64,000 nucleotides of DNA, taken from NCBI GenBank assembly GCA_026168455.1, contig CM047426.1, forward strand, positions 69,846,916 to 69,910,915. Reading direction: 5' to 3'. How positions within the stretch are numbered: the stretch's first letter is position 1; every line of letters begins with the position of its first letter. The notes beneath the pieces were generated by a model. The model worked only from the letters and a program-made list of their open reading frames with translations, had not been told where the DNA came from and ran no database searches. Source of the stretch: Theocolax elegans. Its lineage: Eukaryota; Arthropoda; Insecta; Hymenoptera; Cerocephalidae. This document shows, in pieces, positions 10,426 through 48,506 of the stretch. The translations under genes and the position numbers were made by a program.

Positions 10426-10906
10426 AAATTTGTGAAAATATTAAGAAAATGATTTTTTGATATCATGTATGTGTAACTTCATTTTCAATGATTTTATTAT
10501 TTCAGTGTAATAAATATTTACTTATTAGATTACCTATTTATCAAATACACATGTGTTTTAATGTAGTAAATATGTGTTAAGTTCGTACATCATTTATGTA
10601 CTTATAAAATGAATATTAAGTTAACAATTAATAAGTAATCGAAGAAATATTTATTGGTAATTAAAAAAAAATTATTTAGCAAAAACATAATCTTATACTT
10701 TTGTTAAACAAATTTGTGTACAATTTGATTACACTTTACTTGCAATACATTCTAATAAATTTGTTAATTTTTATTAAATAATATATACTTGTTTTAAATA
10801 AATAATTGCTGTTTTTTAATTTACAAATGTTTGTATTTACTACTTAATTCAGTAATTAATTTATTATTTATTAATATTAAGTTTATTTAAAACCTATAAT
10901 TATTTG

Positions 10907-11600
10907 CCCGCGTAAAAATATAAACTATTGCCACTATATTGCCGAGCAATGGGCAATAGCTATTGCAAACATATTGCCAATATGTTGCCGCGACAATTGG
11001 CAATGTATTGCCAACATATCTCCAAACGTACAACCGCCCATATTTTTGCCAAATATTGGCAATAGTTACTACCTTACCTTTTGTAAACGATTACCAATAT
11101 GTTGGCCATATCTCATAAATTTAAAAAAAAAATAATAATAATAATAGCCATTTTGCTATTTTGTTATTAAGAGTTAATTTCAGGCTATAAAGAACAGTTG
11201 AATTCATAAAATTTTGGACTTAGAAATTTTTTAACCACATTTTTCAACTGTTCTTTATAACCTGAAATTAACTTTTGATAACAAAATAACAAAATGGCTC
11301 AGTGGTAAAGAGTTAGCATTCGGATCTAAAGATTGAAGGTTCAAATCCCGCGGCTGGCTGATATTTTTTTTTTATTTTTTTTTTAAATGTATGAGATATG
11401 GCCAACATATTGGTAATAGTTTACAAAAGGTAAGATAGTAACTATTGCCAATATTTGGCAAAAATATGGGCGGTTGTACGTTTGGAGATATGTTGGCAAA
11501 ACATTGCCAATTGTCGCGGCAACATATTGGCAATATGTTTGCAATAGCTATTGCCCATTGCCCGGCAATATAGTGGCAATAGTTTATATTTTTACGCGGG
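10907..11600 (+). mobile_element. Palindromic MITE A, complete copy
   Basis: 694 bp, beginning CCCGCGTAAAAATATAAACT and ending with its inverse. Arms of about 230 bp are filled with TTGGCAATA/TATTGCCAA words. The centre has a second inverted repeat (about 11166-11280). The right arm has the tRNA-like domain; the left arm has lost it. The flank is TG on each side. The related element at 59041 shows the uninterrupted site, which confirms the boundaries. Confidence 0.85.
11292..11357 (+). other. tRNA-like domain in MITE A
   Basis: Same domain as at 981-1046, with a few substitutions (GAGTTAGC in place of GAGCCAGC). A and B boxes are preserved. Confidence 0.6.
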
Positions 11601-15754: not shown

Positions 15755-16257
15755 TTGAAAACTTATTTGCGATCTGACGGAGGCAAAGGAAAAAAATCTT
15801 AAAAAGACAGATTTTTTTATTATAAGCAACGTGTTTTTTTATAAGGCGTGGTCTGCCAACCTCTTCAGTCTATTTATTAGACACAAAAAAAAATTACAAT
15901 TTATTGAGAACGCACATATGACAATACACTGACAATAAAAGATTTCGTACCTTTAATCGGATTATCGATGCGTCAAATGATCTGTCAAATTATGTGTACA
16001 TCGTCGTGTTTATAGATGTAGCGAGTGTAAACACAGGAAACGTCAAACGGTTGTTAATTAGACATTTAAATTTCTAAGAACTGGCAAATAAGTGGTATTT
16101 AAAAATTTAATATCCTCTTTCTTGTTGATATTATTACTATGAATTTTCAGAAATCAAACGTTTGTTGTAATTACGCCAACGAAACATTGCTTATAATAAA
16201 AAAGTCTGTCTTTTTAAGATTCTTTTTTTCTTTGCCTCCATCAGATCGCATATAAGT
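15755..16257. mobile_element. Foldback MITE interrupted by the Gypsy element (main part)
   Basis: Left arm CTTGAAAACTTATTTGCGAT... at 15755 is mirrored by the sequence ending at 16257 and continuing after the Gypsy element at 23410-23422 (AAGTTTTCAAG). The arms share GGAGGCAAAG, CTTAAAAAGACAGA and TTATAAGCAACG words. The target duplication is ambiguous (TTA or TTAA). There are no ORFs. Confidence 0.7.
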
Positions 16258-16389
16258 TGCGACGAGAGCCCTTGCTATAGGCAATACGCCGTGCTCTCGC
16301 GCTTAACATCTCGCGGAGCAAGCAGGATTAAGGGACTGCTCCCCACTCCTATACCGACAAACGAGAGACACCTAGCGGCCGTCGACGGG

Positions 16390-16397
16390 TATATATA
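16390..16397 (+). promoter_or_regulatory. LTR TATA box
   Basis: TATATATA inside GGGTATATATACAGG, about 130 bp from the LTR start. It would place transcription start near 16420, just upstream of the hairpin array. Confidence 0.65.
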
Positions 16398-16457
16398 CAG
16401 GCGCGCGGACCAGAACAGACAGTCGGCTTGGCGCAGTGGCCCGAGCAGGAACACTCC

Positions 16458-16831
16458 CTCTCTACCTCGGTTCACCAGGTTGAGAGCGCGATCCTCTCGG
16501 GAGCTGAGACAAGCTCGAGTCCTGACCGTACCCTCGGTTCTCCAGAGTACGTCAGTAATAACCCGACTCGGTTCTCCCACTGGTTCACCGTGGGCGAAAC
16601 GAGGAAGGTGCTTGGCCCCGCGACCGCGTACGTGCCCCCGCGACACCGTAACCGCGAAAGCAATAGACGACTCTCCTCGGTTCACCAGGATAGTCGTCTG
16701 CGAAACTTGCTCCTTTGGCTATCGGCGCACCATAGTGGAGGGAGGCAAGTCGACACCGTCGTACACACCTAGCCAGTTTCGTTTTAGCGTTTGGGTCGAT
16801 AACCCTCTTGGTTCTCCAGAGGATTATCGAC
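16458..16831 (+). ncRNA. Hairpin array with shared apex in LTR leader
   Basis: Six hairpins: stems 16458-16467/16477-16486, 16522-16534/16544-16555, 16576-16580/16590-16594, 16665-16677/16687-16699, 16719-16722/16732-16735 and 16795-16808/16818-16831. Loops are CGGTTCACC, CGGTTCTCC, TGGTTCACC, CGGTTCACC, CGGCGCACC and TGGTTCTCC. Stem sequences differ entirely while pairing is kept. Each loop can fold further into a bulged pyrimidine, GG:CC and a four-base loop. This suggests a repeated protein-binding RNA motif, perhaps for Gag and packaging (inference). The same array is in the 3' LTR at +6244. Confidence 0.7.
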
Positions 16832-16990
16832 ACCACCGAGATTTTCTGCCTTATCGACGATCGAGTTGCTCTCGTCGAGGGGTAACCGCGTCATTAGTAT
16901 ATTGTAACCTTGTATTCCGTATTAGTAATTATATTGCCTGGCTAGCATATCACACATATATTGTATATACACAGTCATAACACGCATGCG

Positions 16991-16996
16991 AATAAA
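16991..16996 (+). terminator. Polyadenylation signal in 5' LTR
   Basis: AATAAA downstream of the hairpin array. It is the copy of the signal used in the 3' LTR at 23235. Confidence 0.55.
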
Positions 16997-17165
16997 TTTA
17001 TGTGACTAACGAGACTCTTCTTGTATTCATTTGTTGCAGAGACATAAGGACGAGCGGGTTGTAATTTAATTAAGCGAATAATAAATACTCATTTAGAAAT
17101 AAAAAGTGTTGGTCTTTACGTAACCCCACCCTGGTTTCCTTACTTGGCAAAATCCCTCGGTTACA

Positions 17166-17183
17166 TGGCGCTCGGACAGTTTA
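17166..17183 (+). other. Primer-binding site
   Basis: TGGCGCTCGGACAG begins immediately after the LTR terminal CA, as expected for a tRNA 3'-CCA primer. The priming tRNA was not identified. Confidence 0.7.
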
Positions 17184-17295
17184 GATAGAGTAGTTAGTCA
17201 CACGAATTTATGGCATCTCGTTACACCGATCGATTGTAGGTACACTAGAACAGCGCGTACACTAGCACAATTTTTGTAAACAGATAGTAACCAAG

Positions 17296-18312
17296 ATGGG
17301 CGTTTCTTGGATATATAAACTCAAGAAAGAAGAGCTGATCAATGAGGTAAAGAAGAATGAGTTAGATTGGGAAGGAACGGTTGCCGAACTACGAGAAAGG
17401 CTGGTCGTTTTTGTGCGCGCAAACCCGGATAAATTTACCGATAAGCCCGAAGATCCAGTCGAAGGCGAAGAAGATAAACAGACGTTATCGACCGAATTAG
17501 AAATACCAGTCTCAATGGCCGTCAGAACAATGGAGTCGATGAGAAAATGGAATTGTTTCTTCAGTGGTAAAGAGAGTCTATATGCATTTCTGGAACGAGT
17601 CGATGAATTACAGCGAGCATATCAGTTTACCGACAAACAAATGATGCAAGGAATTACAGAACTGTTACGAGGTGACGCGCTGCTGTGGTATCGAAATATC
17701 CAGGAAGAAGAATTAACGTGGCAGCGACTAGTAGAAAAGTTACGTTTATATTTCTTGTCACCAAGTGAACTGCGTAGTCTCGAAAAACAGATCAACGACC
17801 GTCATCAGAGGAATGGAGAAGCAATTCGTAACTACTTACTTGATGTCGTTACTCTCATGAGACGGCGAGGAGGATACGATCTAGAACGTCAACTGAACAT
17901 ATTGTATTATAATATGAGATCGGAACTAAGACTGTACATCAAGCGAGGCGAAATTAAGTCTATTGATGACTTCGTTCAACAAGTGGAAGAAATAGAAGAA
18001 ACTCTCCGTGAGACAAAAGTACAAACGGGAGAAATAAAATTTCATCCGAGACAGAATACTCCAGGGTCTACAATGACTGTCACACAGACCTATAATAGGA
18101 AGGAATGCTGCTGGCGCTGTAAGCAAAGAGGCCACGATAGATTTAATTGTAGAAATCAATCTAAAAAATTCTGCTCTTACTGCGGAAGAGATGACATTTT
18201 AACTCGTGATTGTAAGTGTCCGAAACCGGGAAACGGAGAGCGGGCCGGCTCGACCAACAAGAACAGCCGGCCCTCGGAAAGGAAAATCGATACTATGTCC
18301 AGGCCAGAGTAG
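17296..18312 (+). CDS. gag: Gag polyprotein of young Gypsy element
   Basis: 338 aa from ATG at 17296. Residues about 7-42 (KLKKEELINEV...ELRERLV) resemble a SAP motif, a helix pair known from chromatin-associated proteins. The middle (about 75-220) looks like a retrotransposon capsid fold (WNCFFSGKESLYAFLERVDE ... ALLWYRN). Near the C-terminus is a zinc knuckle CWRCKQRGHDRFNC (CX2CX4HX4C). A second knuckle-like CSYCGRDDILTRDC has Ile where His is expected. Gag overlaps pol by 97 nt, and pol is in the -1 frame. The structural protein would form particles and bind the RNA. Confidence 0.9.
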   Translation: MGVSWIYKLKKEELINEVKKNELDWEGTVAELRERLVVFVRANPDKFTDKPEDPVEGEEDKQTLSTELEIPVSMAVRTMESMRKWNCFFSGKESLYAFLERVDELQRAYQFTDKQMMQGITELLRGDALLWYRNIQEEELTWQRLVEKLRLYFLSPSELRSLEKQINDRHQRNGEAIRNYLLDVVTLMRRRGGYDLERQLNILYYNMRSELRLYIKRGEIKSIDDFVQQVEEIEETLRETKVQTGEIKFHPRQNTPGSTMTVTQTYNRKECCWRCKQRGHDRFNCRNQSKKFCSYCGRDDILTRDCKCPKPGNGERAGSTNKNSRPSERKIDTMSRPE

Positions 18313-21302
18313 GAAATATTAGATGCACTGCATTAGTCGACACCGGAGCAATAAATTCATTTATAAGTAAACGCATGGTCAAGAATTGTGAGTTGGCGGA
18401 ATGGAAGATTACACCCGAAGAAAGCACAGCTAGTTTGGCGGATGGTACAGAAATCATACTCACCGGAAATATCACCGGAGAATTGGAAATTTCAAACTGT
18501 CAATTAAAACACAATTTCTATATCATGGAAAGCCTGGGACCAGATATTTTACTAGGAATGGACATTTTAAAAAAGTTACAAATGAAAATCATGTTTAACG
18601 GGGTAGAGTTACAAGCTAGAAATGCTGAAAGAAATTCGATTTACGAAGTCACGGTGAGAAATGGGCTATCGGAGATATCAAGAGAGGACATTGCGAAATT
18701 ACAGGCTCTTATAGAAGAGGAAAAAAAGGAATTTGAGAAAATTAAAGGAACAACGCCTCTCATTAAACACGAGATCCGGTTGAATAGACAGACACCAATA
18801 AAACAACGTTACAGACCGTGTAATCCAGAGAAATTAAAAGTGATGAATCTTGAAGTAGATAAAATGATTGAGGAAGGGGTAATAAGACCGTCCAACAGTC
18901 CATGGAATTCAGCCGTGGTAATCACCAAAAAATCGAACGGCAAATGGCGGTTTTGTATCGATTTCCGAAAAGTAAATGAAGTATCGGAAAAGGATGCATA
19001 CCCCATACCCCAAGTAAATGCTACTTTGGATAAATTACGAGGGGCAAAAGTTATTTCAACGATTGATTTGAAGAATGGCTACTGGCAGGTTCCTCTAGAA
19101 GATAAGAGTTGCGAAATTACGGCATTTACAGTTCCAGGGCGTGGTTTGTTCGAGTTTATGACTATGCCTTTCGGGTTGCACGCAGCACCAGCTACGTTCC
19201 AGAGACTTTTGGATCGAATTATAACGCCAGATTTGGCCCCGAATGTATTCGCATACCTTGATGACATTGTGATTATATCAGAAACTTTTGAGGAGCATAT
19301 CCAAATTTTAAGAAACGTATTAGACAGGTTAAAAAGAGCTAATTTAAGCCCCAATTGGGAGAAATGTCACTTTGGTAAGAATAGATTAACATATCTCGGT
19401 CATGTCATCGATAAGGAAGGTTTACATACAGACCCACAGAGGGTAGCAGCCGTGCAAACACTGGAACCACCTAAAAATGTAAAACAGCTAAGAAGATTTC
19501 TCGGCATGGTATCATGGTATCGCCGTTTTATAAAAGATGCATCAACAATTTGTGCACCGTTGAATAAGTTATTAAGAAAAGCAGAAAGATGGAAATGGAA
19601 CGAACAACATCAAGAAGCATTTGAAAAATTAAAAGTAAAAATGACGGAAACACCGATTCTCGCATGCCCTGATTGGGCAGTGACGTTTAAGCTGCAGACT
19701 GACGCGAGCAAAGAAGGATTGGGCGCTGTCTTAACACAAGGTGATAAAGAAGAAGAAAGAGTAATTGCGTATGCAAGCAGATCCCTGAATAGAGCAGAAC
19801 GAAACTACTCTGCTACGGAATTGGAATGTCTAGCAGTAAAGTGGGGAATATGGAAAATGCGCGATTATCTTGAAGGATATCACTTCAAGGTGATAACCGA
19901 CCACCAGTCTTTGAAATGGCTCGACAAAATAGAAAATCCGTCAGGAAGATTAGCCCGATGGGCAATGGAATTAAGCCAATGGGACTACGAGATAAGTTAC
20001 CGAAGAGGTCCAGACAATGTGGTTGCAGATGCGTTATCACGTCAACCAATCCAAGTATACACCGTAAATCAAGTGATAAAATGTAAATGGTACAACGAGA
20101 TGATGGATAAAGTAAGGAAAGATCCGGATGGTAACCCAGAGTACTGTATTACCGGGGGTCGGTTATACCGACACATTTTACACACACTCGATTTTAATGA
20201 GTATGATCAAATAGAAGAATGGAAATTATGTATACCAAAGGAAGAACGAGTGCGTGTACTAAAGGAATGTCACGACGCACCGGTATCTGGACATCTGGGA
20301 ATAGCAAAGACACTTTCCCGAATGGCTCGATTATACTACTGGCCGGGAATGTTACGAGAGGGGACGAAGTATGTGCGAGCGTGCGATAGCTGTCAAAAAC
20401 ACAAGGTTCAACAACAAGCCCCTCCAGGAAAAATGCACGCAACAAAAGTAGATCAGCCATGGGAAATGGTATCGGTGGACCTAATAGGGCCGCTACCGAG
20501 ATCAACAGATGGTAATGTACAACTGTTGGTAATGCAGGACAGATTTACCAAGTGGGTAGAGTTGCGCCCTCTACGTAAAGCAACATCCGAATCGGTAACA
20601 AAAGCTCTAGAAGAGCAGATAATATTACGATATGGTTGTCCGCGTACGGTGGTAAGTGATAATGGTCGGCAATTCATTGGTAAAGAATGGAAGAAATTAT
20701 TACAAGATTGCAATATCAAAACAAGATATACACCACCGTATACGCCACAATGCAATCCGGTAGAAAGGACAAACAGAGTGATTAAGACAATGATTCGACA
20801 ATACATCACGGATTCGCAGAAGACCTGGGATCGACATATAGCGGAGATAGCATTCGCATATAATACCGCACCAAGTGATGCTACTGGATATTCACCCGCA
20901 TATCTGAATTACGGTCGCGAACTAAACCCACCAGGCAGCCTGAGCCAGGAAGTGGGAGGTTCATTACCAACGGAGGTAGGAACCCGCCGTAAACGCCAGC
21001 AAAACGCAATTGAACTCGCGCGTATTTTGTTAGCACGCAGCTTCGACAAACAACGACATAGTTATGATTTACGTCGTCGTAAATGGAGTCCAACAATAGG
21101 AGAACAAGTATTATACAAAATACATAAACTCTCAAATAAAGCGAAAAATTATAATGCCGGATTGGATAAGAAGTCAGAAGGCCCGTACCGTGTAACAAAG
21201 AAAATATCACCAGTAATATTCGACTTAGAGGACGGAAACGGTAGAAAAATAAAGCACGTTCATATACGAGATCTAAGGACGTACATAACTCAAGCGGACT
21301 AG
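18216..21302 (+). CDS. pol: Pol polyprotein (protease, RT, RNase H, integrase)
   Basis: About 1028 codons, open from 18216; the first codon shown is GTG, so expression must come from -1 frameshifting or another route, not an ATG. Domains in order: aspartic protease (LVDTGA, about 40), reverse transcriptase (FCIDFRKVN, then YLDDIVII at about 345), RNase H (QTDASKEGLGAVL, TDHQSLKWL, ADALS), integrase zinc finger (H...H, CDSCQ), catalytic core (VDLIGP, SDNGRQF, NPVERTN) and a basic tail. The second Asp and the Glu are separated by 34 residues. No stop or frameshift seen. No canonical slippery heptamer was found in the 18216-18312 overlap. Confidence 0.93.
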   Translation: MSETGKRRAGRLDQQEQPALGKENRYYVQARVGNIRCTALVDTGAINSFISKRMVKNCELAEWKITPEESTASLADGTEIILTGNITGELEISNCQLKHNFYIMESLGPDILLGMDILKKLQMKIMFNGVELQARNAERNSIYEVTVRNGLSEISREDIAKLQALIEEEKKEFEKIKGTTPLIKHEIRLNRQTPIKQRYRPCNPEKLKVMNLEVDKMIEEGVIRPSNSPWNSAVVITKKSNGKWRFCIDFRKVNEVSEKDAYPIPQVNATLDKLRGAKVISTIDLKNGYWQVPLEDKSCEITAFTVPGRGLFEFMTMPFGLHAAPATFQRLLDRIITPDLAPNVFAYLDDIVIISETFEEHIQILRNVLDRLKRANLSPNWEKCHFGKNRLTYLGHVIDKEGLHTDPQRVAAVQTLEPPKNVKQLRRFLGMVSWYRRFIKDASTICAPLNKLLRKAERWKWNEQHQEAFEKLKVKMTETPILACPDWAVTFKLQTDASKEGLGAVLTQGDKEEERVIAYASRSLNRAERNYSATELECLAVKWGIWKMRDYLEGYHFKVITDHQSLKWLDKIENPSGRLARWAMELSQWDYEISYRRGPDNVVADALSRQPIQVYTVNQVIKCKWYNEMMDKVRKDPDGNPEYCITGGRLYRHILHTLDFNEYDQIEEWKLCIPKEERVRVLKECHDAPVSGHLGIAKTLSRMARLYYWPGMLREGTKYVRACDSCQKHKVQQQAPPGKMHATKVDQPWEMVSVDLIGPLPRSTDGNVQLLVMQDRFTKWVELRPLRKATSESVTKALEEQIILRYGCPRTVVSDNGRQFIGKEWKKLLQDCNIKTRYTPPYTPQCNPVERTNRVIKTMIRQYITDSQKTWDRHIAEIAFAYNTAPSDATGYSPAYLNYGRELNPPGSLSQEVGGSLPTEVGTRRKRQQNAIELARILLARSFDKQRHSYDLRRRKWSPTIGEQVLYKIHKLSNKAKNYNAGLDKKSEGPYRVTKKISPVIFDLEDGNGRKIKHVHIRDLRTYITQAD

Positions 21303-21426: not shown

Positions 21427-22380
21427 ATGTCGTTCGAAGAGGTAGTCCTCGAGACGGAGCGAGCAGTGGCAGCGATCCAGGCAGAAATGGAGAAGGAAGG
21501 GTGGATAGTGCCGGAGTGGCCGGAAAAGGACGAGGAAAAGGAAACACCAGGAAAGGAGAAGGTGGAAGGAGAGAAAGACTGGGAGTATATTCCAGGACCG
21601 ATACCCCCGCAGACACCGACCTACCAGCCAACACCTTTGGAGGTCCTCACCAAACGGGTCTATCCGCGGACAAAAATAATTACGCCAGCAAAGAAACGGC
21701 CAAAGGCGCAGGTGACGAGGAATGTGCGGACGTCAGTCATCAAGCTGACACGAGCAAGAAAGACCAGGCCTAAGGTAGGAAAGGAGAGGCCTCGCATCAA
21801 GCTGGTGGAAGACGTGACAGGAGAGGCATGGGCACTAAAATTAGCCGCGCTGCGCCGTAAAGTGGCCAGCAGAGAAACGGAGAAGGAGAGAGGATCGAAA
21901 CCGGTAAAAAGACCGGTCCGGCCGACGCGGAAGACGGTGATCGTAGAGCCACCGGGATGGCGATCAACTTCCTCAGCACCAGCAGAGCCACCAACCACAC
22001 CACCGGTTAAAAAACAGCCAATAACATCGGCTCCAACTCCGCCAGGAACACCGGCAATAGTAGCGGCGACACCACCAGCACCAAGGACACAAGGGTCAAC
22101 ACAGTGCACTCCCACACCGGAGGTGACTCCACCAACCCCACCACTGACCCCAGTACAGCAGGAAATAAAGCCGGCAACAACATCAGCTGAGCAGGCAGAT
22201 AAGCGACCAACAGTCAGGGTGGAGATTCCGGATGGACCGGTAGTAGAAGTACCGATAGGAAGGAGGGTGCATCGAGTCGAGAGTGGCGGTCAACGATGGG
22301 CGATTCGTCTGGATGCGGTGGGAGTGGTGAAGACGATAAATAAATATAGTGAGTATTACCTGTTACCGTACACCGATTAA
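21427..22380 (+). CDS. Third ORF of young Gypsy element, Pro/Thr-rich, not envelope-like
   Basis: 317 aa from ATG at 21427, 124 nt after the pol stop, in the position where errantiviruses carry env. The N-terminal third is acidic and Glu-rich, the middle is basic (residues about 80-165), then comes a Pro/Thr/Ala tract (about 175-250), and a short more ordered end (VRVEIPDGPVVEVPIGRRVH). There is no signal peptide, transmembrane segment or furin-like site, so an envelope role is unlikely. No family recognised. The composition suggests a disordered nucleic-acid-binding or adaptor protein, which is inference only. Confidence 0.75.
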   Translation: MSFEEVVLETERAVAAIQAEMEKEGWIVPEWPEKDEEKETPGKEKVEGEKDWEYIPGPIPPQTPTYQPTPLEVLTKRVYPRTKIITPAKKRPKAQVTRNVRTSVIKLTRARKTRPKVGKERPRIKLVEDVTGEAWALKLAALRRKVASRETEKERGSKPVKRPVRPTRKTVIVEPPGWRSTSSAPAEPPTTPPVKKQPITSAPTPPGTPAIVAATPPAPRTQGSTQCTPTPEVTPPTPPLTPVQQEIKPATTSAEQADKRPTVRVEIPDGPVVEVPIGRRVHRVESGGQRWAIRLDAVGVVKTINKYSEYYLLPYTD

Positions 22381-22491: not shown

Positions 22492-22501
22492 AGGAGGGGG
22501 A
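22492..22501 (+). other. Polypurine tract
   Basis: AGGAGGGGGA directly before the 3' LTR TG, where plus-strand priming is expected. Confidence 0.8.
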
Positions 22502-23409
22502 TGCGACGAGAGCCCTTGCTATAGGCAATACGCCGTGCTCTCGCGCTTAACATCTCGCGGAGCAAGCAGGATTAAGGGACTGCTCCCCACTCCTATACCG
22601 ACAAACGAGAGACACCTAGCGGCCGTCGACGGGTATATATACAGGCGCGCGGACCAGAACAGACAGTCGGCTTGGCGCAGTGGCCCGAGCAGGAACACTC
22701 CCTCTCTACCTCGGTTCACCAGGTTGAGAGCGCGATCCTCTCGGGAGCTGAGACAAGCTCGAGTCCTGACCGTACCCTCGGTTCTCCAGAGTACGTCAGT
22801 AATAACCCGACTCGGTTCTCCCACTGGTTCACCGTGGGCGAAACGAGGAAGGTGCTTGGCCCCGCGACCGCGTACGTGCCCCCGCGACACCGTAACCGCG
22901 AAAGCAATAGACGACTCTCCTCGGTTCACCAGGATAGTCGTCTGCGAAACTTGCTCCTTTGGCTATCGGCGCACCATAGTGGAGGGAGGCAAGTCGACAC
23001 CGTCGTACACACCTAGCCAGTTTCGTTTTAGCGTTTGGGTCGATAACCCTCTTGGTTCTCCAGAGGATTATCGACACCACCGAGATTTTCTGCCTTATCG
23101 ACGATCGAGTTGCTCTCGTCGAGGGGTAACCGCGTCATTAGTATATTGTAACCTTGTATTCCGTATTAGTAATTATATTGCCTGGCTAGCATATCACACA
23201 TATATTGTATATACACAGTCATAACACGCATGCGAATAAATTTATGTGACTAACGAGACTCTTCTTGTATTCATTTGTTGCAGAGACATAAGGACGAGCG
23301 GGTTGTAATTTAATTAAGCGAATAATAAATACTCATTTAGAAATAAAAAGTGTTGGTCTTTACGTAACCCCACCCTGGTTTCCTTACTTGGCAAAATCCC
23401 TCGGTTACA
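22502..23409 (+). repeat. 3' LTR of young Gypsy element
   Basis: 908 bp, the same length as the 5' LTR and identical in every stretch compared. It repeats the TATA box (22634), the hairpin array (about 22702-23075) and AATAAA (23235). Confidence 0.92.
23235..23240 (+). terminator. Polyadenylation signal in 3' LTR
   Basis: AATAAA in R of the 3' LTR, the expected functional signal for the element's transcript. Confidence 0.6.
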
Positions 23410-23422
23410 AAGTTTTCAAGAT
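23410..23422. mobile_element. Remaining tip of the interrupted foldback MITE
   Basis: AAGTTTTCAAGAT continues the right arm that stops at 16257, after the AAGT target duplication. It is the mirror of CTTGAAAACTT at 15755. Confidence 0.65.
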
Positions 23423-24668: not shown

Positions 24669-25040
24669 GTAAAAATAGAATGTTTATTATTTTTTATTAT
24701 TTTCAAGAAAAACGAACTTACGTTTAATAATATGCACATATGAATAGAATATATTTAATGGTTTATGTAAGTACATTTAAAGCGAGCCTTCTTTAATTTC
24801 CCGCGTAAAAATATAAACTATTGCCACTATATTGCAGAGCTATGGGCAATAGCTATTGCAAACATATTGCCAATATGTTGCCGCGATAATTGGCAATGTA
24901 TTGCCAACATACCGCCAAAAAGCACTCTCCCATATCTTTGCCAAATATTGGCAATAGTTACTATCTTACCATTTATAAACTATTGCCAATATGTTGGCCA
25001 TACCTCATAAATTACAAAAAAAAATAAAAAAAAAATATTA

Positions 25041-25108
25041 GCTTGCCGCGGGATTCGAACCTTCGATCTTTAGATCCGAATGCTGGCTCTTTACCACTGA
25101 GCCATTTT
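25041..25108 (-). other. tRNA-like domain, left arm of MITE A
   Basis: Reverse complement of the domain at 26457-26521. It reads TGGCTCAGTGG and GGTTCGAATCCC on the minus strand. Confidence 0.6.
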
Positions 25109-25234
25109 GCTATTTTGTTATTAAGAGTTAATTTCAGGCTATAAAGAACAGTTGAAAGTGTGGTTAAAATAAATTTCTAAGTCCAAAATTTTATGAATTC
25201 AACTGTTCTTTATAACCTGAAATTAACTCTTCAT

Positions 25235-26442
25235 CCCGAGTAGAAATTCTAGCCAGGCCGCCTGAACTAGAAAACAGGGCCTGAAAAGGCCGCCTGTTAA
25301 GGGCCGGGATACGAATGTAATGGAATTTAAGTCAGGGCCTAATTTTGTTAGTTCGGATGTGACGTTATAGTAAAAGTCAATTTTGTTAGTTCGAATGTGA
25401 GGTTAGTAATAGTATCTACAAATTATATAGTATTGTATATAAATTTTCAGGTTAGAATTTTATCAAGAGTTTTTTATAAATATAAAATGAGTAAAAAAAT
25501 TGATTATAAGTACTCAGAAGCTTAATTTACTAAGAGTTCGAAGGTACCGATTGAAAAGGAAAATACAATATATAAATAATGAAAGTTTAAAAAAACACTT
25601 TAATAATATAAAATAATATAATAATAATATAAAAGTTTATGCAGTATTATATTGCTTTAAATATGTGAAAAGATTTAATTTTGTATTGTATAAAAAAAGT
25701 GCAAAGTTATTAATATTATATTATATTAAGATTGTTGTAATTATTTGGAAATTATATTAAACCATATATTTTAATTATATTATATATAATATTTATGTTT
25801 AATAAATATTTATGTATTAAAATGCATTTTATTTTATTTACAAAACCTATACGCACACACACGCACACACACATACACGCATGTACGCACGCCTAATTAA
25901 CCTTATATTTATAACTTTATATTAGTATATTTTGTGGTTTTTAAGATTACAAAGCTGTTACACATGTAAGATAACGTTTTTTTAACCTATTAACCTATAC
26001 GGGCCATGCCCATGATCGACCCTTTACATGTGTTAGTTTTGAGATGTGAGACATCACATAAACTCGATTTCTATAGAAAAGTGAGAGAAAACAGTAAACC
26101 CAAATCCCCGTCCTGTAAAGGTTAAAAGTGATTCGATGTTTTTAGACATTAATTTTATAGAAAAAAAAGCTTTTTTGAACCAGAAAATTCCCGTCCTCTA
26201 AAGGTTAACAATTAAAAACAATTGTAAAATAACAAATACATTCAGATTTAGTTTTTACTACTAATTAAGTGCCTTAATATCACCTGAACATACCCACAAA
26301 ATAGTATTACATAAAACAGGCCCTGATCTCCACCCCATTACATTTTTTAAAGGCCCTTTACAGGCACCTGTTCAGGGCTTTTAATATTCGTCAGGTACCT
26401 GAACAGGGCCTTCTTTTTGCCTGGAATTCATTTCTACTCGGG
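25235..26442 (+). mobile_element. CCCGAG-type nonautonomous DNA transposon, complete copy
   Basis: 1208 bp, from CCCGAGTAGAAATTC to ATTTCTACTCGGG, flanked by AT on both sides (2-bp duplication). Both ends carry clustered GGCCT/CAGG palindromes, similar but not identical between ends. No ORF of note. A second copy in inverse orientation starts the window. The CCCxxGTA termini match the autonomous element at 1748. Confidence 0.85.
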
Positions 26443-26456
26443 ATAACAAAATAGCA

Positions 26457-26521
26457 AAATGGCTCAGTGGTAAAGAGCCAGCATTCGGATCTAAAGATCG
26501 AAGGTTCGAATCCCGCGGCAA
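26457..26521 (+). other. tRNA-like domain, right arm of MITE A
   Basis: TGGCTCAGTGG A box and GGTTCGAATCCC B box, the closest match to Pol III consensus among the four copies. Confidence 0.6.
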
Positions 26522-27351
26522 GCTAATATTTTTTTTTTTATTTTTTTTTGTAATTTATGAGGTATGGCCAACATATTGGCAATAGTTTACAAATGATAAA
26601 ATAGTAACTATTGCCAATATTTGGCAAAGATATGGGAGAGTGCTTTTTGGCGGTATGTTGGCAATACATTGCCAATTGTCGCGGCAACATATTGGCAATA
26701 TGTTTGCAATAACTATTGCCCATAGCTCTGCAATATAGTGGCAATAGTTTATATTTTTACGCGGGTTTAAATCAAGTTTTGGTTCGTAAATATCGCTGAA
26801 TATATTTTACACATATCTTTTATTATATTTCATAGAAATTTCGAAATGTTTTTTTAAGATTATTTTTTGTTACTGTGGAATGTATTAAAAAATTTCCCAC
26901 AAAAGGATACCGAATTAATATACATTAATGCAAATATTGTGTTTCGGAGATATCGACTGAAATTCTTATATTTATAATATTTTTTGTTTTTATTATATAT
27001 CTCTAAATAAGATAAACCTAAATATAGGACATTGATCGACTTTTATAGTATTGTGATAATGTTCAAGCAATTTTCTTAATGTTTGATTTGAAAAAACAGA
27101 AATAGTAAATTAAAATAAACAATATAAATCTATAACTATTTTTCATTCAAACAGCCATTTTAAATAAATATAAATCTACATGAACGTATTTACACCAATC
27201 ATTGAATATTTACCATGTAAATGTATGCACTCAATGTATAAAGTATATTAAATATATTTTCAAATTTGCAATAAACGTTTTTAATACCAATTTCATAGTA
27301 GCTTATTACACATTAGAGAATACGCAAAAAATGACTTCTTAAAGATAAAAA

Positions 27352-29614: not shown

Positions 29615-29866
29615 TTAAGCAATGGATTCACACTTTAAATTTTAGAGAGTATATACAACATAAGTTTTGTCTCTATATACTGACATAATTATATACTTTT
29701 TATTATTATTTAACATACACTGAAAAAAATTTTTCTTATATACAGTAGATAAATTTACTTGAATAAGTTCATTTACCTAAAATAAAAAAATATTTACATA
29801 AATTAAACAATTATTTCGATCAAAATAATATTTACTTAAGAGTAATACTGCTACGTATTATAATTT

Positions 29867-30110
29867 TGTTATGTATTGTGGGATAAATAATCAGGTTCGT
29901 GTAACTTCGGTTGAACTTTATTTTGATTACACTAACAATATATTTACACAAGTTTTTGAACGTGATGCGCCGCAGTGTACTTGCGGGAGAATATGCGTCC
30001 GCTCGAAGCGGTAGTCCGCTTGCTTCTGCCTCGCTCGTCTGGTCGCGCACTTCCGCTGACGAGGTGGCGCTAACGTAGCTCGCGTACTTTACAATTTTTA
30101 GGACACAACA
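29867..30110 (-). repeat. 3' LTR of decayed Gypsy element
   Basis: 244 bp. Has an extra 17 bp (around 30002-30020) relative to the other LTR. Preceded on the minus strand by a purine tract AGGGGTGAAGGGA (30111-30123). Confidence 0.88.
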
Positions 30111-30123
30111 TCCCTTCACCCCT
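30111..30123 (-). other. Polypurine tract
   Basis: AGGGGTGAAGGGA on the minus strand abuts the 3' LTR. Confidence 0.7.
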
Positions 30124-30471
30124 AGATTATGTTCACCCCCGCTTATAGTCGCGGTCGCATTCGCGTTTACAATTGAATTGTTCGAATCGTAGTGCTTAGA
30201 TTAATAATGCGTGGAATAAGATATGACACTATTGCTCGTCACGTGATATGGTTTTATCAAATAATACATGTGGATTACACGTAATGAGCCGCGGATGAAG
30301 TATTATAGAAACATAATATGTTAAGGAATAATGCTATTAGAAGATATAATGTAATGTAATTTTGAAGTAGCAATATAACAAACAAGGTCAATCTATTTTA
30401 AATAGTACGATTAAGTAAATTAAAATTTAAATATAACACTCTAAATATAGTTCCGCCCGTGCGGTATAAAC

Positions 30472-33400
30472 TTAATAGATCACACAATCGCCGTAACGAT
30501 CAGGTATTCGTCGTTCGCGTCGAGGGCGAGACTGCGCTTCAGGTGAGACTGGCTCTACTTCTTCTGTGTCAAAACGAGGGTCTCGAGCCAGTGGCACGTG
30601 TACGATAGGCACGTCATGCGTCACGTCCTGTTCCGGCCCTGCATCGGCGACGGCGCTCGGCAGGTGCGCGTTTGCTTCTTCAGGCTGGGGCGCTGTAGCA
30701 CTTTGCTCTCGACTCTCGCGCAATGTTTCTTGTCCGGTGCAATGCTTGTCGTTGTGAGACTCGTCCTCGTCCTGTATGTAATCTTCGCGTGTTTGGATCG
30801 CTCTTGGTGGCTCGCTATAAAGCTCTACCACTGGATATCGCTTCGCGTTGGCCTTTATCCGAAACAGCTGGTCCACGCTTCTTGAGTGCAAGGTTCCGTC
30901 TCTGTCCTCTACTGCGTATAGGCGATTTCCTGCACTTACTTTGATGACTCCTTCTGACCATTTAGGTGTGTGCTTTCTGTAGTCTCTGAAACGTACCGCG
31001 TCGCCGACGTTGAAGGACCTGGTAATGCTTGTTAGTGCCTTCGGATTTAGGAGTCGTTTGGTTTCCGGTCGTATGCAGTCTAAGGACGATCTCACCTTAA
31101 GATTTGCGTAAAAGTGATCCGCCGGCGCACGTTGTGTAACTGTGTTTCGTACCGTTCTCATTGCAAAGACGACTCTTGCTAGTCTCGTGTCGCGATCGAT
31201 TTCTGCAGCGTGTTTTCTCCACAACTCCTTGAAGGTACGCACTGTGCGCTCAGCTGCTCCGTTGGATGCTGGGTGGAACGGAGGTGAGTTTAGAAATTGC
31301 ACTCAGTTTTTCTCTAGGAACTGGGCGAATTCCTTCGATTTAAACTGTCGACCATTGTCCGAGACTAGTAGTGCAGGAACTCCCAGATCCGCGAAGACCT
31401 CTCTTACAGTTTTTATCAATTCTCTGGCTGTCATCGAAGAAACCTTTTTTATTATAGGAAACTTCGCAAATGCGTCGATCATTATTAAATATACGTCTCC
31501 GTCAATAGGGCCTGCGTAGTCTACGTGCACTCTTTCCCACGATCGAGTTGGTGCTGGCCAAGCTAGAGGAGGTGTTGATGGTGGACTGCTTCTGTTTTCT
31601 TGGCATACCTGGCAATTTGAGCGGGCAACTGCTTTGGTTCGCACAATGCCATGGTGCGCTGAATGAACTGCATCTAGTACCTTTTTTCGTAGGACAGCTG
31701 GGACTACAACTCTGTCCCCTCGAAGCAAGCATCCCTGCTGGACGTTTATCTCTGCTCTTATGTCCCAGTATGCCTTGAGGTTCGCTGGCGCTTTATTCGG
31801 CCAACCATTTCTTATAAAGTCGAGAACTTTCGAAGTTTCTGGATCGACTGCTGATGCTTTGGCAACATCTGCTGAATTGATCGGGTTACTCCCTATTTCA
31901 AGAAGGTGAATGCCTACAGGCTCTGGAAATTCTTCGTTCTCTTGTTGCGGTAATGGCAGGCGTGAAAAGGCATCAGCATTGCCATGCTTCTTTCCCTCTC
32001 TGTAAACGAATTCATATTCGTATGCTCCTAAAATCAGTGCCCAACGAATTATCCTAGGTGACAGATGCTCAGGTGTCGTCGATCCTTTTTTAAATATTTC
32101 TAGTAATGGTTTATGATCTGTTATGAAGAGTATATGAGGACGACCGTAGATGTGTTTGTGAAACTTTGAAACACCAAATATGAAGGATAAGGCTTCCTTG
32201 TCTACTTGAGAGTAGTTTCGCTCTGAGGATGTAAGCGTACGTGATTTAAAAGCAATTGGCCTTTCAGTCCTATCTGGTTCTATGTGCGACAGTACTGCTG
32301 AAACTCCGTAGGGACCATCGTAATGTGTGAGAATTTTGCTGCTGGTAAGAATAGTTTCGACTGTGACTAAGGCGGTCTCATGCTCTTGGGTCCAATTCCA
32401 GGCGACTTCGTTATGTAGAAAGCGATATAACGGTTCGAATAAAGTAGCCCTGTCAGGTATAAAACTATCGTAGAAATTGACAACACCCAAAAGCGCTTGT
32501 AATTCGGCTTTATTTTTGGGCGCAGGCGCTCTCGTGACTGCGTCTACTTTATCCGGCAGTGTATGGATTCCGTTTTTGTCTATTTTAAATCCTAGAAATT
32601 CGATAGCTTGGACGCCAAAAAAACACTTTTGTCTTTTTATTTTTAACCCGTGGTTTATTAATATATCGAGTACCTGCCTTAACCGTTGGTCGTGCTCGCG
32701 TTTAGTTTTTCCTGAAATCAGTATGTCGTCGGCCAAAATTGCAACTCCGTTGACTGTAGCTAACAGTCCTTCCATAATTCTTTGCAGAATGCCTGCTGCA
32801 GTAGAGACTCCAAACGGTAAACGGTGGACTGCAAATAAGCCTTTTATTGTGTTTATCGCTAATACGTGCGATGCCTCTTCGTCGACGGTGAGCTGCGCGT
32901 AAGCCTGGTCTAAATCGAGCTTTGAAAATATTATTGCTCCCGCCAGCTTGACGAATAAATCGTCTATAGAAGGGAGAGGATAGCGATCTGGTTTTAATAC
33001 TTTATTGACTGTAGCCTTATAATCCCCACATAATCGGATATTTCCGTCTCTTTTTGGTACAATTACCACCGGCGTATCCCAGTCTTAGTAGGGTATTGGC
33101 ACAAGAACTTCTACATCCTGTAATCGTTGAAGCTCCTCTTCTACTCTCGTTTGCAAGGCGTAAGGCACTGGACGGCTCCTCAGATAAATAGGTTGCACTG
33201 TACGATCGAAATCTAGTTTAATGGGGGGGGCCTTAAATTCGCCTAACGTTTAGTTGCCCGATATTAGGGCTGGATGTGTAATACTTGAACAGATTTCCGA
33301 AGTAGCGTCGGTATTTTGAAGTCGTAGCGAGTTGATTCCTTGAATGGTTAGCCCTAAGTGACAGAACCAATTACGGCCCAAGAGATTTTGATCCTTGCAT

Positions 33401-34023
33401 CCCTCTACGATAATTAATGGTACGGTTGCACAGCGGCCTCGAAACGAAACTTTTACCATTCTTCGTCCAACTATGCGGACCTCGTTTTCGCCATAGTCGT
33501 TCAATTTTAGGCCTTGGATCGGTGTAAGTGTAGAGGTGTCACCCCAGAGCTTGGCGAATGTGTTTTTGTGCATTACGGTTACTGCGGCCCCCGAGTCGAT
33601 TTCCATCCAAACTCGCTTGGCGTCTATTTCCAATTGTACTGTAATTGCGGGGGGAACGGCCCATGTACTAGCGTTCGAATCACCGCTCACTTGAAAGAGC
33701 TCGTATGCATTTTTATTTTGTGATTGATCCGCACCTTGTGCCTTGGAGGATTGTGCGCTGGAAACTGCGCGCTCGCTGTCTAAGGCCACTTGGTGCTTGG
33801 ACGCCGTCACAGTAGTTTCTGCCTTAGCCTCTTCTGCTCCGCGGTTTCGTTTTGCGTTGCTCCCTCGTTTCTTTGCTTTGTAGAACGATTTGCGGGTCCC
33901 TGCTTGGCAGACTTTGAACACGTGGCCACTGCGCTCGCATACTGTGCAATATAGCGAGTCGGGGCTCATCGTACATTGCGGTACGTGGTGGTCGCCACCG
34001 CACTTGTAACACACATACAACAC
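30472..34023 (-). pseudogene. pol: Protease-RT-RNase H-integrase region of decayed Gypsy element
   Basis: One frame from 34023 to 30472 is broken by TAA at 33250-33252, TAA at 33085-33087 and TGA at 31303-31305. In order: zinc knuckles CYKCGGDHHVPQC and CTVCERSGHVFKVC; protease EIDSGAAVTV; RT (LCGDYKATVN, LPFGVSTA, LADDILISG, with the first residue of the usual Y/F-x-DD changed); RNase H (FITDHKPLLEI, NADAFSRLP); an integrase whose zinc-finger region is shortened (TKAVARSNCQVCQ); catalytic residues in VDYAGP, SDNGRQF and NGAAERTV. The C-terminal extension ends RRERRIPDRYGDCVIY. It is of the K02A2.6-like Gypsy type common in insects. Not functional as it stands. Confidence 0.88.
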
Positions 34024-35979
34024 TGTTTATTATTTTTCGCGTCGAGGGTTTGCGCTCGGTTTTGCGTATGCGTCGGTGAATCCGCGTGCGCATTGACTTC
34101 TGTTCTGTTTGTCGATAATCGAGCTACTTGGTGGCTTATTGTATCGGCATTTGACATTTCTTTTACGTGTGATAGCGCAGACTCCGCGCGTGACGCGGTT
34201 TCTATGGCGATTTTTAAGGTTAGGTCGGGCTTTTGTAGCAAACGCGCCCGTACGGCATCTTCGGCGCATTCCGCACACAAACTGGTTACGTATCATGTCG
34301 TCTAATTTAGTACCAAATCCACAGTCGGAGGCTAACCTACGTAATTCTGCAACGAATTCAGTTTCACTTTGCCCGTATTTCTGTGTCGAATGATGGAAAC
34401 GATAGTACGCGGCTACTTCGTTGACCTGCGGACGAAAGTGATTTCCTAACTCTTGTATTATTTCTTCGTATAGTACTGAGCCCACTTCGCGCGGATGTAG
34501 TACATTGCATGCCAAGTTATACATGTCTTCGCCGCAACGTGTAAAAAAATGCGCGCGTTTTAACTCTGCGTCTTGTAACGTGGTATTTCGTCCTAATACC
34601 AGTTACAAGTTATTTGTTTATTAATACAGGGACGACGGCCCCGAAGAACGCGTCTTTGTCGTCGCCGTGGGTTAATAGTTAACCCGTCGGGACACGGTAG
34701 CGGAAATAGGACGATCTCCTACGTACCGACACACGTGGCGGGAAAATCGGGAATCGGAAGGTTGTTTGCGGGTTAATTTATAGTTAAAATGATAACGCGA
34801 CCGTTATATTAAAATAAAACAAATAAGTTTTTATTTAATGAGTTACACGGAGGTGCCCGACAATACTTAACGAGGCGTTCTCTCGGTCGCGTGGTATATA
34901 CGCGGCAAGCAGGGGCTGCCCCCGTGCTCGCCCCGCGCAATACCCAATCAATTTCGGTAGCACCGGTATGCTACCGAACAAACATACGTGCACACACACA
35001 ACACACTCTAACGTATACCGACCAATGTCGGGTACTTACCGGGCTGGGTTGTCCATAGGCCCTGGTGTGCGTCGGCGCCCCGACGTCTGCTGGCCGGTGG
35101 AGTCGGCCCGGTTTCCCGTCGTCCTCGACGGTAGTCTGCAGGTGCGGCCTGATGTCGCGGCCATTCGCCTACCTCGGGGAACACTCAACCCGTGGTATTT
35201 GGTCCTTCGCACTGCACTCACACGAACTCACGAGCACTCGCGTACGGCTTCCCGGAGCACGGACGAACCGGTCCGGTACTTCCCGTGGCGCGCGGAACTA
35301 GACGTGACGATGTGTCAAAGGGTGTTGTCGCGGTCAAGACCGGCAGCGTACTGAGCTTTTCGGGAATTGTCGCATTCCCGAAAAGTACCTATCACGCACA
35401 CACACAATAACAATTGTATATACGGATGTTCGCACACATCCTCGGTCGTCGACATAAACACGCGTGTTTCGTGGCCTTGAAGAGGCAACGCACAAAACAA
35501 TAACAACGTGCGAGATTTTAAGATATAATATTTAATACATACTACGAAATAATATAATACATTAAGTATTATTTATTCCATTGCAACGACGTCTCGTCGC
35601 AGTCTGTAACTCGCATAGCCGTGAAATTGAAATCGAGCAGCGTCACCCATCGTGGCCACTCCGTTGGTCGCGATGTATCGTACGGTTTTATACTTATTGA
35701 TGTGGCTACTACGGAGGGTGCGCTATTTGAAATTCGACTCCAGTCGCTTGAATTCTGGCTGTTGTTCTCCGTCATGTTTATTACGCGGTGTATTCTCGGT
35801 ATAGGCGCTTTCGTGTAATATGGCGCTCGGACGCTCGTGTTTGTTCTATACTTAGCTAAGGAATGTCTGCAATGCTTGTTGTGGCTGATTCCGCGTCGTT
35901 CCTCGCCGTTCCGTTGTATGTAGATTATCGATAAGTGTCGGTTGATGCGTAGTTTTTCGAGTCGGCCATTGCATTTCAC
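33966..35979 (-). pseudogene. gag: Gag of decayed Gypsy element, split by an insertion
   Basis: The N-terminal part (about 35589-35800) includes WPRWVTLLDFNFTAMRV. The C-terminal part (34580 down to about 33970) includes HFFTRCGEDMYNLACNVL and FRPQVNEVAAYYRF, with at least two frame changes between 34280 and 34020. A 1000-bp block (34581-35580) separates them. An LQ-coding site is repeated on both sides of the block, which marks its target duplication. Confidence 0.75.
34581..35580. mobile_element. 1000-bp GC-rich insertion inside gag (solo LTR or unknown)
   Basis: Starts TGGTATTTCG, ends TTATTCCA, and is flanked by an imperfect 8-bp duplication (TTGTAACG at 34573-34580, TTGCAACG at 35581-35588). 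TG...CA ends suit a solo LTR, but 8 bp is too long for most LTR integrases and suits hAT- or P-like transposons. It contains hairpins CGGTAGCA...TGCTACCG (34952-34977) and CTTTTCGGGAAT...ATTCCCGAAAAG (35356-35382). The frames of 128, 78 and 72 codons show no domain. Confidence 0.55.
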
Positions 35980-36131
35980 TCGGCACGAGAAGGACGTGAC
36001 TTTTAGCGAATTCTTGAATTCTTAGAATCGGCCGTCGAGTGAGTGCGGCGTTGCTGCCGCAGCGTCCTCTCTCCCGCTTCGTTCGTTCCGTTGACTGCAT
36101 GGTATTTCGAATTCCTCACCTCGTCGCCATT

Positions 36132-36358
36132 TGTTATGTATTGTGGGATAAATAATCAGATTCGTGTAACTTCGGTTGAACTTTATTTTGATTACACTAA
36201 CAATATATTTACATAAGTTTTTGAACGTGATGCGCAGCAATGAACTTGCGGGAGAATATGCGTCCGCTTGCTTCTGCCTCGCTCGTCTGGTCGCGCACTT
36301 CCGCTGACGAGGTGGCGCTAACGTAGCTCGTGTACTTTACAATTTTTAGGACACAACA
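36132..36358 (-). repeat. 5' LTR of decayed Gypsy element
   Basis: 227 bp. On the minus strand it is followed two bases later by TGGCGACGAGGTGAGG, the likely primer-binding site. Confidence 0.88.
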
Positions 36359-37984: not shown

Positions 37985-40600
37985 CAGTTCCTAGATCTTT
38001 CGGGAATTTCGGAGGAAATTCGGGATGAGTCGACTAATTACGGGGTTTCCTGGATATTTCGGGAATTTCTGAAATATTTCAGAAAGACTCCACTACTTAC
38101 GGGATATCCTGGATATTTCGGGAATATCTGAGGAAATTCGTGATGACTCTACCAATTACGGAATTTCCTCAATCTTTCGGGAATTCCTGAGGTATTTCGA
38201 GATGACGCTACCAATTACGGGAATTTCTGGATATTTTGGGAATTTCTCAAATATTTCATAAAGACTCCACTAATTATAGTATTTCCTGGATATTTCGGGA
38301 ATATCTTAGGAAATTCGGGATGAATCTACCAATTACGGGATTTCCTGGATCTTTCGGTAATTGCTGAGGTATTTAAAAAAAAACTCCACTAATTATGGTA
38401 TTTCCTGGATATTTCGAGAATTTCTGTGGTATTTTTGGATAACTCTACAAATTAAGGGATTTCCTGGATATTTCGGGAATTTCTGAGGTATTTCTGGATA
38501 ACTCTACTAATTACGGGATTTCAAGGATATTTCGGGAATTTCTGAGATATTGTGGAATGTCGCTACTAATTACGGGATTTTTTGGATATTTCGGGAATAT
38601 CTGAGGAAATTCGTGATGATTCTACCAATTACGGGATTTCCAGGGCCTTCGGGAATTGCTTAGGTATTTCGGGATGACGCTACAAATTACGGAATTTCCT
38701 GGATATTTCGGGAATTTCTGAGGTATTTAAAAAAAAACTCCACTAATTATGGTATTTCCTGGATATTTCGGGAATTTCTGAGGTATTCCTGGATCACTCT
38801 ACTAATTACGGGATTTCCTGGATCTTTCGGGAATTTCTGAGGAAATTCGGGATAACACCAATAATAACGGAATTTCCTGGATATTTCGGGAATTTCTGAA
38901 ATAATTCAGAAAGACTCCACTAATTATAGTATTTCCTGGATATTTCGGGAATATCTGAGGAAATTCGGGATGAATCTACCAATTACGGGATTTCCTGGAT
39001 CTTTTGGAAATTCCGAGGTATTTCGGGATGATTCTACCTATTACGGGATTTCCTGGATATTACGCGAATTTCTGTGGAAATTCGGAATGAATCTACTAAT
39101 TACGGAATTTCCTGTATATTTCGGGAATTTCTGATATATTTCTGAGAGGCTCCACTAATTACGGGATTTCCTGGATATTTCGGGAATTTCTGAGGAATTT
39201 CTGGATAACTCTACAAATTAAGGGATTTCCTGGATATTTCGGGAATTTCTGAGGTATTTCGAAATGTCTCCACTAATTGTGGTATTTCCTGGATATTTCG
39301 GAAATTTCTGATTTATTTCGGGATGTCGCTACTAATTACGGGATTTCCTGGATATTTCGGGAATTTCTGAGGTATTTCTGGATAACTCTACTAAATAAGG
39401 GATTTCCTGGATATTTTGGGATTATCCGAGGAAATTCGGGATGAATCTACCAAATACGGGATTTCCTGGATCTTTCGGTAATTGCTGAGGTATTTAAAAA
39501 CAAACTCCACTAATTACGGGATTTCCTGGATATTTCGGGAATTTCTGAGGAATTTCTGGATAACTCTACAAATTAAGGGATTTCCTGGATATTTCGGGAA
39601 TTTCTGAGGTATTTCGAAATGTCTCCACTAATTGTGGTATTTCCTGGATATTTCGGAAATTTCTGATTTATTTCGGGATGTCGCTACTAATTACGGGATT
39701 TCCTGGATATTTCGGGAATTTCTGAGGTATTTCTGGATAACTCTACTAAATAAGGGATTTCCTGGATATTTTGGGATTATCCGAGGAAATTCGGGATGAA
39801 TCTACCAAATACGGGATTTCCTGGATCTTTCGGTAATTGCTGAGGTATTTAAAAACAAACTCTACTAATTATGGTATTTCCTGGATATTTCAGGAATTTC
39901 TGAGGTATTTCTGGATAACTCTACTAATTACGGGATTTCCAGGATATTTCGGGAATTTCTGAGATATTGTGGATGACGCTACTGATTACGGGATTTCCTT
40001 GATATTTCGGGAATATCTGAGGAAATTCGGGATGAATCTACGAATTACGGGATTTCCTGGATCTTTTGGGAATTCCGAGGAACTACGGGATGATTCTACC
40101 AATTACGGGATTTCCTGGATATTACGCGAATTTCTGTGGAAATTCGGGATGAATCTACTAATTACGGAATTTCCCTTATATTTCGGGAATTTCTGAAATA
40201 TTTTAGAGAGACTCCACTAATTACGGGATTTCCTGGATATTTCGGGAATTTCTGAGGAATTTCTGGAAAACTCTACAAATTAAGGGATTTCCTGGATATT
40301 TCGGGAATTTCTGATGTATTTCGAAATGTCTCCACTAATTGTGGTATTTCCTGGATATTTCGGAAATTTCTGATTTATTTCGGGATGACGCTACTAATTA
40401 CGGGATTTCCTGGATATTTCGGGAATTTCTGAGGTATTTCGAAATGTCTCCACTGATTGTGGAATTTCCTGGATATTTCGGGAATTTATGAGGTATTTCG
40501 GGATGACGCTACAAATTACGGGATTTCCTAGAAATTTTGGGAATTGCTGAAATATTTCAGAAATACTCCACTAATTACGGGATTTCCTGGATATTTTTTA
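37985..40600. repeat. 59-bp minisatellite, array 1
   Basis: About 44 units of 59 bp, each with GGGATTTCCTGGATATTTCG, GGAATTTCTGAGG and ACTCTACTAATTACG. Spacing was checked at 38466, 38525 and 38584. A six-unit block of 355 bp is repeated almost exactly (39151-39505, 39506-39860), with a third partial copy from about 40207. Frames across the array, such as 39969-40196, follow the repeat and are not genes. There are no unique spacers, so it is not a CRISPR array. Confidence 0.95.
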
Positions 40601-48380: not shown

Positions 48381-48506
48381 AATACAAAAAAACCACTTAT
48401 TAAACTAACAATTTGCAAAAATTAATATGATAAAAACAATAAAACTCACGTAGAACATAATCTTACCAATAAAAAAAGGCGCAGAGATATTAAGTTAACA
48501 TATTGG

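Follow-up and report, generated by a model that had tools for sequence, protein, structure and literature searches.

Why should the long terminal repeat (LTR) of a Gypsy-type retrotransposon carry six hairpins whose stems differ while their tips are nearly the same? The case comes from a 64,000-nucleotide stretch of Theocolax elegans DNA (contig CM047426.1), here called the window, which holds the array on its forward strand at 16458-16835. We find the hairpin array to be real and unusual, and from its sequence, its predicted folds and its variation among genomic copies we infer what it may do.

The element and the position of the array

The array belongs to an element of the Ty3/Gypsy type. 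The two LTRs have TG...CA ends, agree at 908/908 bases and are enclosed by an AAGT target-site duplication, and Pfam matches follow one another in the order gag, protease, reverse transcriptase, RNase H and integrase. The element has these features:

16258..17165, forward strand: 5' LTR, TG...CA ends, AAGT flank at 16254-16257
16390..16397, forward strand: likely TATA box TATATATA, a motif match
16991..16996, forward strand: AATAAA, a motif match that recurs at 17080 and at 17098, probably marking where R ends
17166..17179, forward strand: likely primer-binding site TGGCGCTCGGACAG, adjoining the LTR end, read from the sequence
17296..18312, forward strand: gag ORF, 338 aa, with a Retrotrans_gag match and Cys/His motifs near the C terminus
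18216..21302, forward strand: pol ORF, with protease, reverse transcriptase, RNase H and integrase
21427..22380, forward strand: third ORF, 317 aa, pI 9.8, after pol
22492..22501, forward strand: likely polypurine tract AGGAGGGGGA, before the 3' LTR, read from the sequence
22502..23409, forward strand: 3' LTR, AAGT flank at 23410-23413

A second copy of the array sits inside the 3' LTR at 22702-23079. GGGAAAC at 18228, a heptamer of a usual slippery type, stands in the phase needed for a -1 shift between gag and pol. The Cys/His positions of Gag are near-invariant in an alignment of 28 sequences and resemble a nucleocapsid zinc knuckle. Among 98 Gag relatives the named hosts are the ants Lasius, Cataglyphis, Odontomachus and Temnothorax and the wasp Microplitis.

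The initial annotation had placed the array just after the TATA box and probably in R, and this placement is reasonable: as DNA motifs, the TATA box at 16390 and the three AATAAA signals at 16991, 17080 and 17098 bracket it. Because of this bracketing the array probably lies in R, the location also looked for in a response element of the Rev/Rex type, and it would therefore occur at both ends of the RNA. Transcription would start near 16421, with a predicted leader of about 875 nt.

The surrounding DNA holds several other repeats. Just upstream of the 5' LTR, at 15790-16226, two inverted arms of 43 nt, 93% complementary and 351 nt apart, look like a small inverted-repeat element. On the reverse strand, 29865-36358 is a second LTR-type element with fragmented retroelement-like ORFs and direct-repeat flanks about 91% alike; it gave no match to the model of the hairpins described below. 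At 37988-40596 and 45224-46204 lie tandem arrays that repeat every 59 bases or so and are about 70% related to each other, and one repeat recurs in several copies, some of them inverted, at 1-1341, 10853-11600 and 24796-26766. Two adjoining frames at 48426-50489 resemble a reverse transcriptase of the Penelope type that ends in a GIY-YIG-like part.

Geometry of the six hairpins

The apex pattern YGG(TTCW|CGCA)CC has seven forward-strand matches per LTR, which in the 5' LTR start at 16468, 16535, 16569, 16581, 16678, 16723 and 16809. A scan of the 64-kb window found none outside the LTRs on the forward strand and none anywhere on the reverse strand. Six of the seven copies in each LTR are hairpin apexes:

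16458..16486, forward strand: hairpin H1, apex CGGTTCACC at 16468-16476
16522..16555, forward strand: hairpin H2, apex CGGTTCTCC at 16535-16543; weakest stem, with a mismatch 2 bp below the bulge
16567..16603, forward strand: hairpin H3, apex TGGTTCACC at 16581-16589
16569..16577, forward strand: seventh motif copy CGGTTCTCC, lying within the 5' stem of H3 and lacking pairing flanks of its own
16664..16700, forward strand: hairpin H4, apex CGGTTCACC at 16678-16686
16706..16750, forward strand: hairpin H5, apex CGGCGCACC at 16723-16731; most divergent apex
16792..16835, forward strand: hairpin H6, apex TGGTTCTCC at 16809-16817

One plan is predicted for 6/6 hairpins, consisting of a lower stem, a 1x1 mismatch, an upper stem, a bulged pyrimidine, two GG:CC pairs and a four-base YKCW loop. 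The upper stem has 2 bp in H2, 4 bp in H1 and H4, and 5 bp in H3, H5 and H6, and the bulged base is C in 4/6 hairpins and U in 2/6. In 5/6 hairpins the mismatch is the fifth or sixth pair down from the apex (p 0.031, post hoc). As pairing continues below the mismatch, whole stems reach 9 to 16 bp, exceeding the length obtained by counting uninterrupted pairs only. Much of the initial annotation is upheld by these folds: the bulged pyrimidine, the two GG:CC pairs and the four-base loop appear in all six, the stems it had put at 4 to 14 bp are present and longer as a whole, and its six loops match the pattern, to which the copy in the H3 stem has to be added.

Folded singly, the hairpins have z values of -2.2 to -6.0, and a 461-nt fold has z = -4.1, with 0/100 shuffles equally stable. 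In a fold of the whole predicted leader the GG:CC pairs have probabilities of 0.84-0.99, while the H6 pair just under the bulge reaches only 0.5. Between a bulge with a tetraloop and an open 9-nt loop, folding energy alone decides, because GG:CC is invariant among the six. Nine bases of H2 (16531-16539) recur as CCCTCGGTT at 17154-17162, where U5 ends, ahead of ACA.

Pairing, chance and variation among copies

The claim of six inverted repeats whose stems are unrelated while the apex is shared is confirmed by the mean pairwise identities, which are 0.81 over the 9-nt apex and 0.35 over each of the left and right arms (10 nt). Each arm is matched to its own partner: pairing scores with the true partner are 6 to 12, those with other partners average 2.15 with a maximum of 5.5, and the true assignment is the best of 720 permutations. 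Among other positions of a 9-nt loop in 16420-16880, 0/269 score above 6.0 and one equals the score of H2. A six-member family of like-looped hairpins appeared in 0/86,144 dinucleotide shuffles (maximum 5), with thresholds chosen after the array had been seen. Hairpins with the bulge and GGNNNNCC and at least 4 bp number 5, compared with a mean of 0.05 and a maximum of 2 in 2000 shuffles; over both strands, the rest of the 64 kb holds six more shapes of this kind, closed by different loops.

In a gap-free alignment of the six hairpins, 10/12 pair positions have changed on both sides, and 87.5% of cells pair, against 62.3% after shuffling. The covariation score is 0.750, against 0.256 for shuffled and at most 0.300 for slid controls, but since the structure was derived from the same sequences it exceeds its slid versions for that reason alone. 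In the RNAalifold consensus the count of pairs with two-sided changes is 13/15. If the hairpins descend from one common ancestor, the two-sided changes are compensation; if they arose separately, they are pairing maintained under different letters. A model built without H5 misses it at default filters and without filters finds it at 7.8 bits (E 0.96); hence, H5 belongs to the array by its stem and geometry more than by its sequence.

The hairpin model matches the six hairpins in each LTR and otherwise gives weak antisense or chance matches; no credible further member was found in gag, pol or the third ORF. Among 4227 Rfam families, none matched 16258-17300 at E <= 5. The apexes occupy all three reading phases, and they therefore have no shared coding sense. 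A coding origin of the motif was rejected on these phases and on the 229-aa frame across the LTR, for which none of 298 candidates was a homologue at E <= 10.

To evaluate how the array varies among genomic copies of the family, we searched the same genome (657,985,991 bases in 1277 contigs) and scored the 40 most similar among 60 candidates for LTR copies, a number that is a lower bound; they have 95-100% identity over the LTR. These 40, the window's two included, were grouped into 25 insertions, none being dropped. Variants found in at least two insertions were called shared and have either propagated or been hit twice, while private ones mostly represent decay after insertion. The hairpin core was defined as the apex plus 12 nt per arm.

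Across the 25 insertions the core has 0 shared and 16 private-only variable sites of 198, compared with 13 and 27 of 262 between the hairpins. The stretch after the array has 11 shared and 43 private-only of 285 sites, and U3 has 13 and 22 of 163. Core and spacer differ in shared variants per site (p 0.0008) and not in private ones (p 0.52); tested as shared against private, p is 0.011, or 0.021 with the post-array stretch added. For whole folded hairpins, 2/222 sites are shared, compared with 11/238 in the spacers (p 0.022), and the comparison of shared with private variants gives p 0.10; both shared variants keep pairing (U.G to U-A at 16700, C-G to U.G at 16710). These p-values are guides, as the insertions share ancestry and the sites are not fully independent. 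The lack of shared core variants is a sign that the hairpins are under selection in the copies that propagate.

Private changes fall on the apex and on the stem at similar rates (5/54 and 11/144 sites), and they break pairs at 7/11 changed stem sites and, in whole hairpins, at 10/18 changed paired sites. As none is common to two insertions, we read them as decay after insertion. No compensatory double change was seen among the 25 insertions. The selection on the hairpins that had been proposed is thus backed by the two-sided changes at 10/12 pair positions and by the 0/198 shared core sites, and not by the private changes. The suggestion to compare loop with stem changes and to look for covariation gave a divided answer, with nothing shared in either part of the core on one side, and equal private rates and no double change on the other.

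A search of IMG/VR for relatives by pol gave no pattern match, and a search by a Gag alignment gave 37 candidate stretches in IMG/VR and 81 in GTDB contigs, of which 0 were confirmed in either set. Two viral contigs retrieved by a two-motif DNA pattern were rejected, their number being about the chance expectation and the best model match reaching 11.3 bits (E 0.37).

Candidate readers of the array and comparison with known systems

Our preferred, still tentative reading is that the array would offer multivalent docking to an RNA-binding protein, most likely the element's own Gag nucleocapsid, and mark full-length RNA for packaging. In the RNA of the element the six inverted repeats would fold, each presenting one near-constant apex, with the stems serving to present the apex and the apex carrying the sequence contact. 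The Gag nucleocapsid would bind the array multivalently, and this binding would select full-length RNA for packaging. A tip that is repeated six times while its stems are interchangeable would be a natural fit for a multivalent contact. We place Gag first among the candidate readers because it must recognise the element RNA and carries the near-invariant Cys/His positions; the third ORF protein would come second and host or translation factors after it. Against the Gag reading, the sites are confined to the LTR array, with none credible through gag, pol and the third ORF, and R would be a poor signal for full-length RNA because spliced RNA, should it exist, would keep R as well. A bolder version, which we hold to be doubtful, would see the array as a six-hairpin, operator-like cassette at both RNA ends, a landing pad on which Gag would start capsid assembly and whose stems would be free to change if they stay paired.

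The apex might instead be read by a host RNA-binding protein, or the array might give the leader a structure that serves ribosome entry or shunting or stabilises the RNA. The long predicted leader of about 875 nt is in line with this, as are the absence of ATG from the 728 bases of U3 and leader at 16258-16985 (dinucleotide-shuffle mean 5.9) and the four short upstream ORFs that follow before gag. Zero ATG is reached by a fraction of 0.0005 of shuffles for that stretch and 0.006 for 16421-16985, but by 0.089 for the array alone (16421-16880), which is not striking, and a translation element would not need one exact apex six times; we regard this alternative as unlikely. To a response element in R, by which the third ORF protein would export unspliced RNA from the nucleus in the manner of Rev or Rex, we give a smaller chance still. 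This protein is basic (pI 9.8), rich in Pro, Thr and Lys/Arg, and has a net charge of +12 in the 30 residues 87-116; the available parts of two papers describe an HTLV Rex response element that lies largely in R (PMC6714889) and an export factor encoded by the Gypsy-related element Cer1 itself (PMC10309623). However, it has no homologue among 5007 candidates and no Pfam match, its structure model is mostly of low confidence or unstructured (mean pLDDT 54.8), and the splice sites were scored by a crude matrix only. If it did read the array, insects would have in this element a simple counterpart of the Rev/Rex systems.

The remaining explanations do without a protein that reads the RNA. Loops kissing each other, or the copies at the other RNA end, could lead to dimerisation or circularisation, as Ty3 dimerises through a palindrome in a hairpin loop according to the part of the source available (PMC11381356). 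The apexes are partly self-complementary, that of H5 pairing with itself at -7.9 kcal/mol, but most apex pairs reach only -1.4 to -4.7 kcal/mol, the TTCU apexes being worst, and GG and CC are likely taken up by pairing inside the hairpin, which leaves such contacts improbable. Even less probable is a by-product of local copying whose shared apex would be a functionless leftover: other scraps near the hairpins are repeated too, for example CGTGGGCGAAAC/CGTCTGCGAAAC (repeat family D15), and the seventh motif copy lies in the H3 stem, yet arms that changed and still pair, and the 0 shared core variants in propagating copies, would be left unexplained. Were the motif a double-stranded DNA site for a transcription factor or an insulator, its shortness and its repetition in an LTR near the promoter would fit; such a site would have no need of complementary flanks, which 6/7 copies have, and the array lies downstream of the likely start, making this the most improbable of the explanations. 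Docking of Gag is our preferred reading; the array would offer one presumed RNA-protein contact replicated six times by nature, which makes the question directly testable in vitro.

The MS2 operator consists of a bulged A, two pairs and a four-base loop. The likeness to it that had been pointed out holds for the geometry, as the predicted fold has the same succession of bulge, two pairs and four-base loop, and fails for the bulged base, which is C (4/6) or U (2/6) instead of A. Judging from the available parts of two papers on MS2-type packaging stem-loops (PMC4751978, PMC6281560), these signals and the array share a recognition feature on variable stems, in the array as predicted folds. MS2-type signals are dispersed through the genome, whereas the array is clustered in one LTR, and they belong to RNA viruses with a capsid protein as binder, whereas here the element integrates as DNA and the binder is putative.

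Retroviral and retrotransposon systems offer other parallels, again as far as the accessible portions of the papers go. HTLV, like this element, encodes a basic extra protein, and its structured RNA lies largely in R, thus partly at both RNA ends, where the array probably lies too, but its RXRE is one complex stem-loop structure and not six like hairpins (PMC6714889). Cer1 of C. elegans is Gypsy-related and also encodes an additional protein beside gag and pol; this protein, CERV, has 517 aa, a spliced five-exon mRNA and predicted folded domains, whereas the third ORF is a 317-aa frame with a mostly unstructured model and no homologue. The same portion of the Cer1 paper describes no hairpin array and notes that many elements have 3' ORFs of unknown function (PMC10309623). 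For Ty1 and Ty3, packaging sequences are reported as not precisely defined (PMC4974528), and Ty3 packaging needs the UTRs among other sequences (PMC4974528, PMC11381356). Both have functional packaging or dimerisation structures at the RNA 5' end, a position similar to that predicted for the array, but Ty1 uses a pseudoknot and Ty3 a loop palindrome, and these excerpts describe no repeated apex (PMC4974528, PMC11381356). The titles and abstract openings found in searches of the open-licence literature describe no comparable array. By analogy, the array may work like packaging-signal hairpins or like a response element, being at most a candidate member of either class. If the landing pad is real, the solution of the phage operator would have been reached independently in an animal Gypsy LTR retrotransposon.
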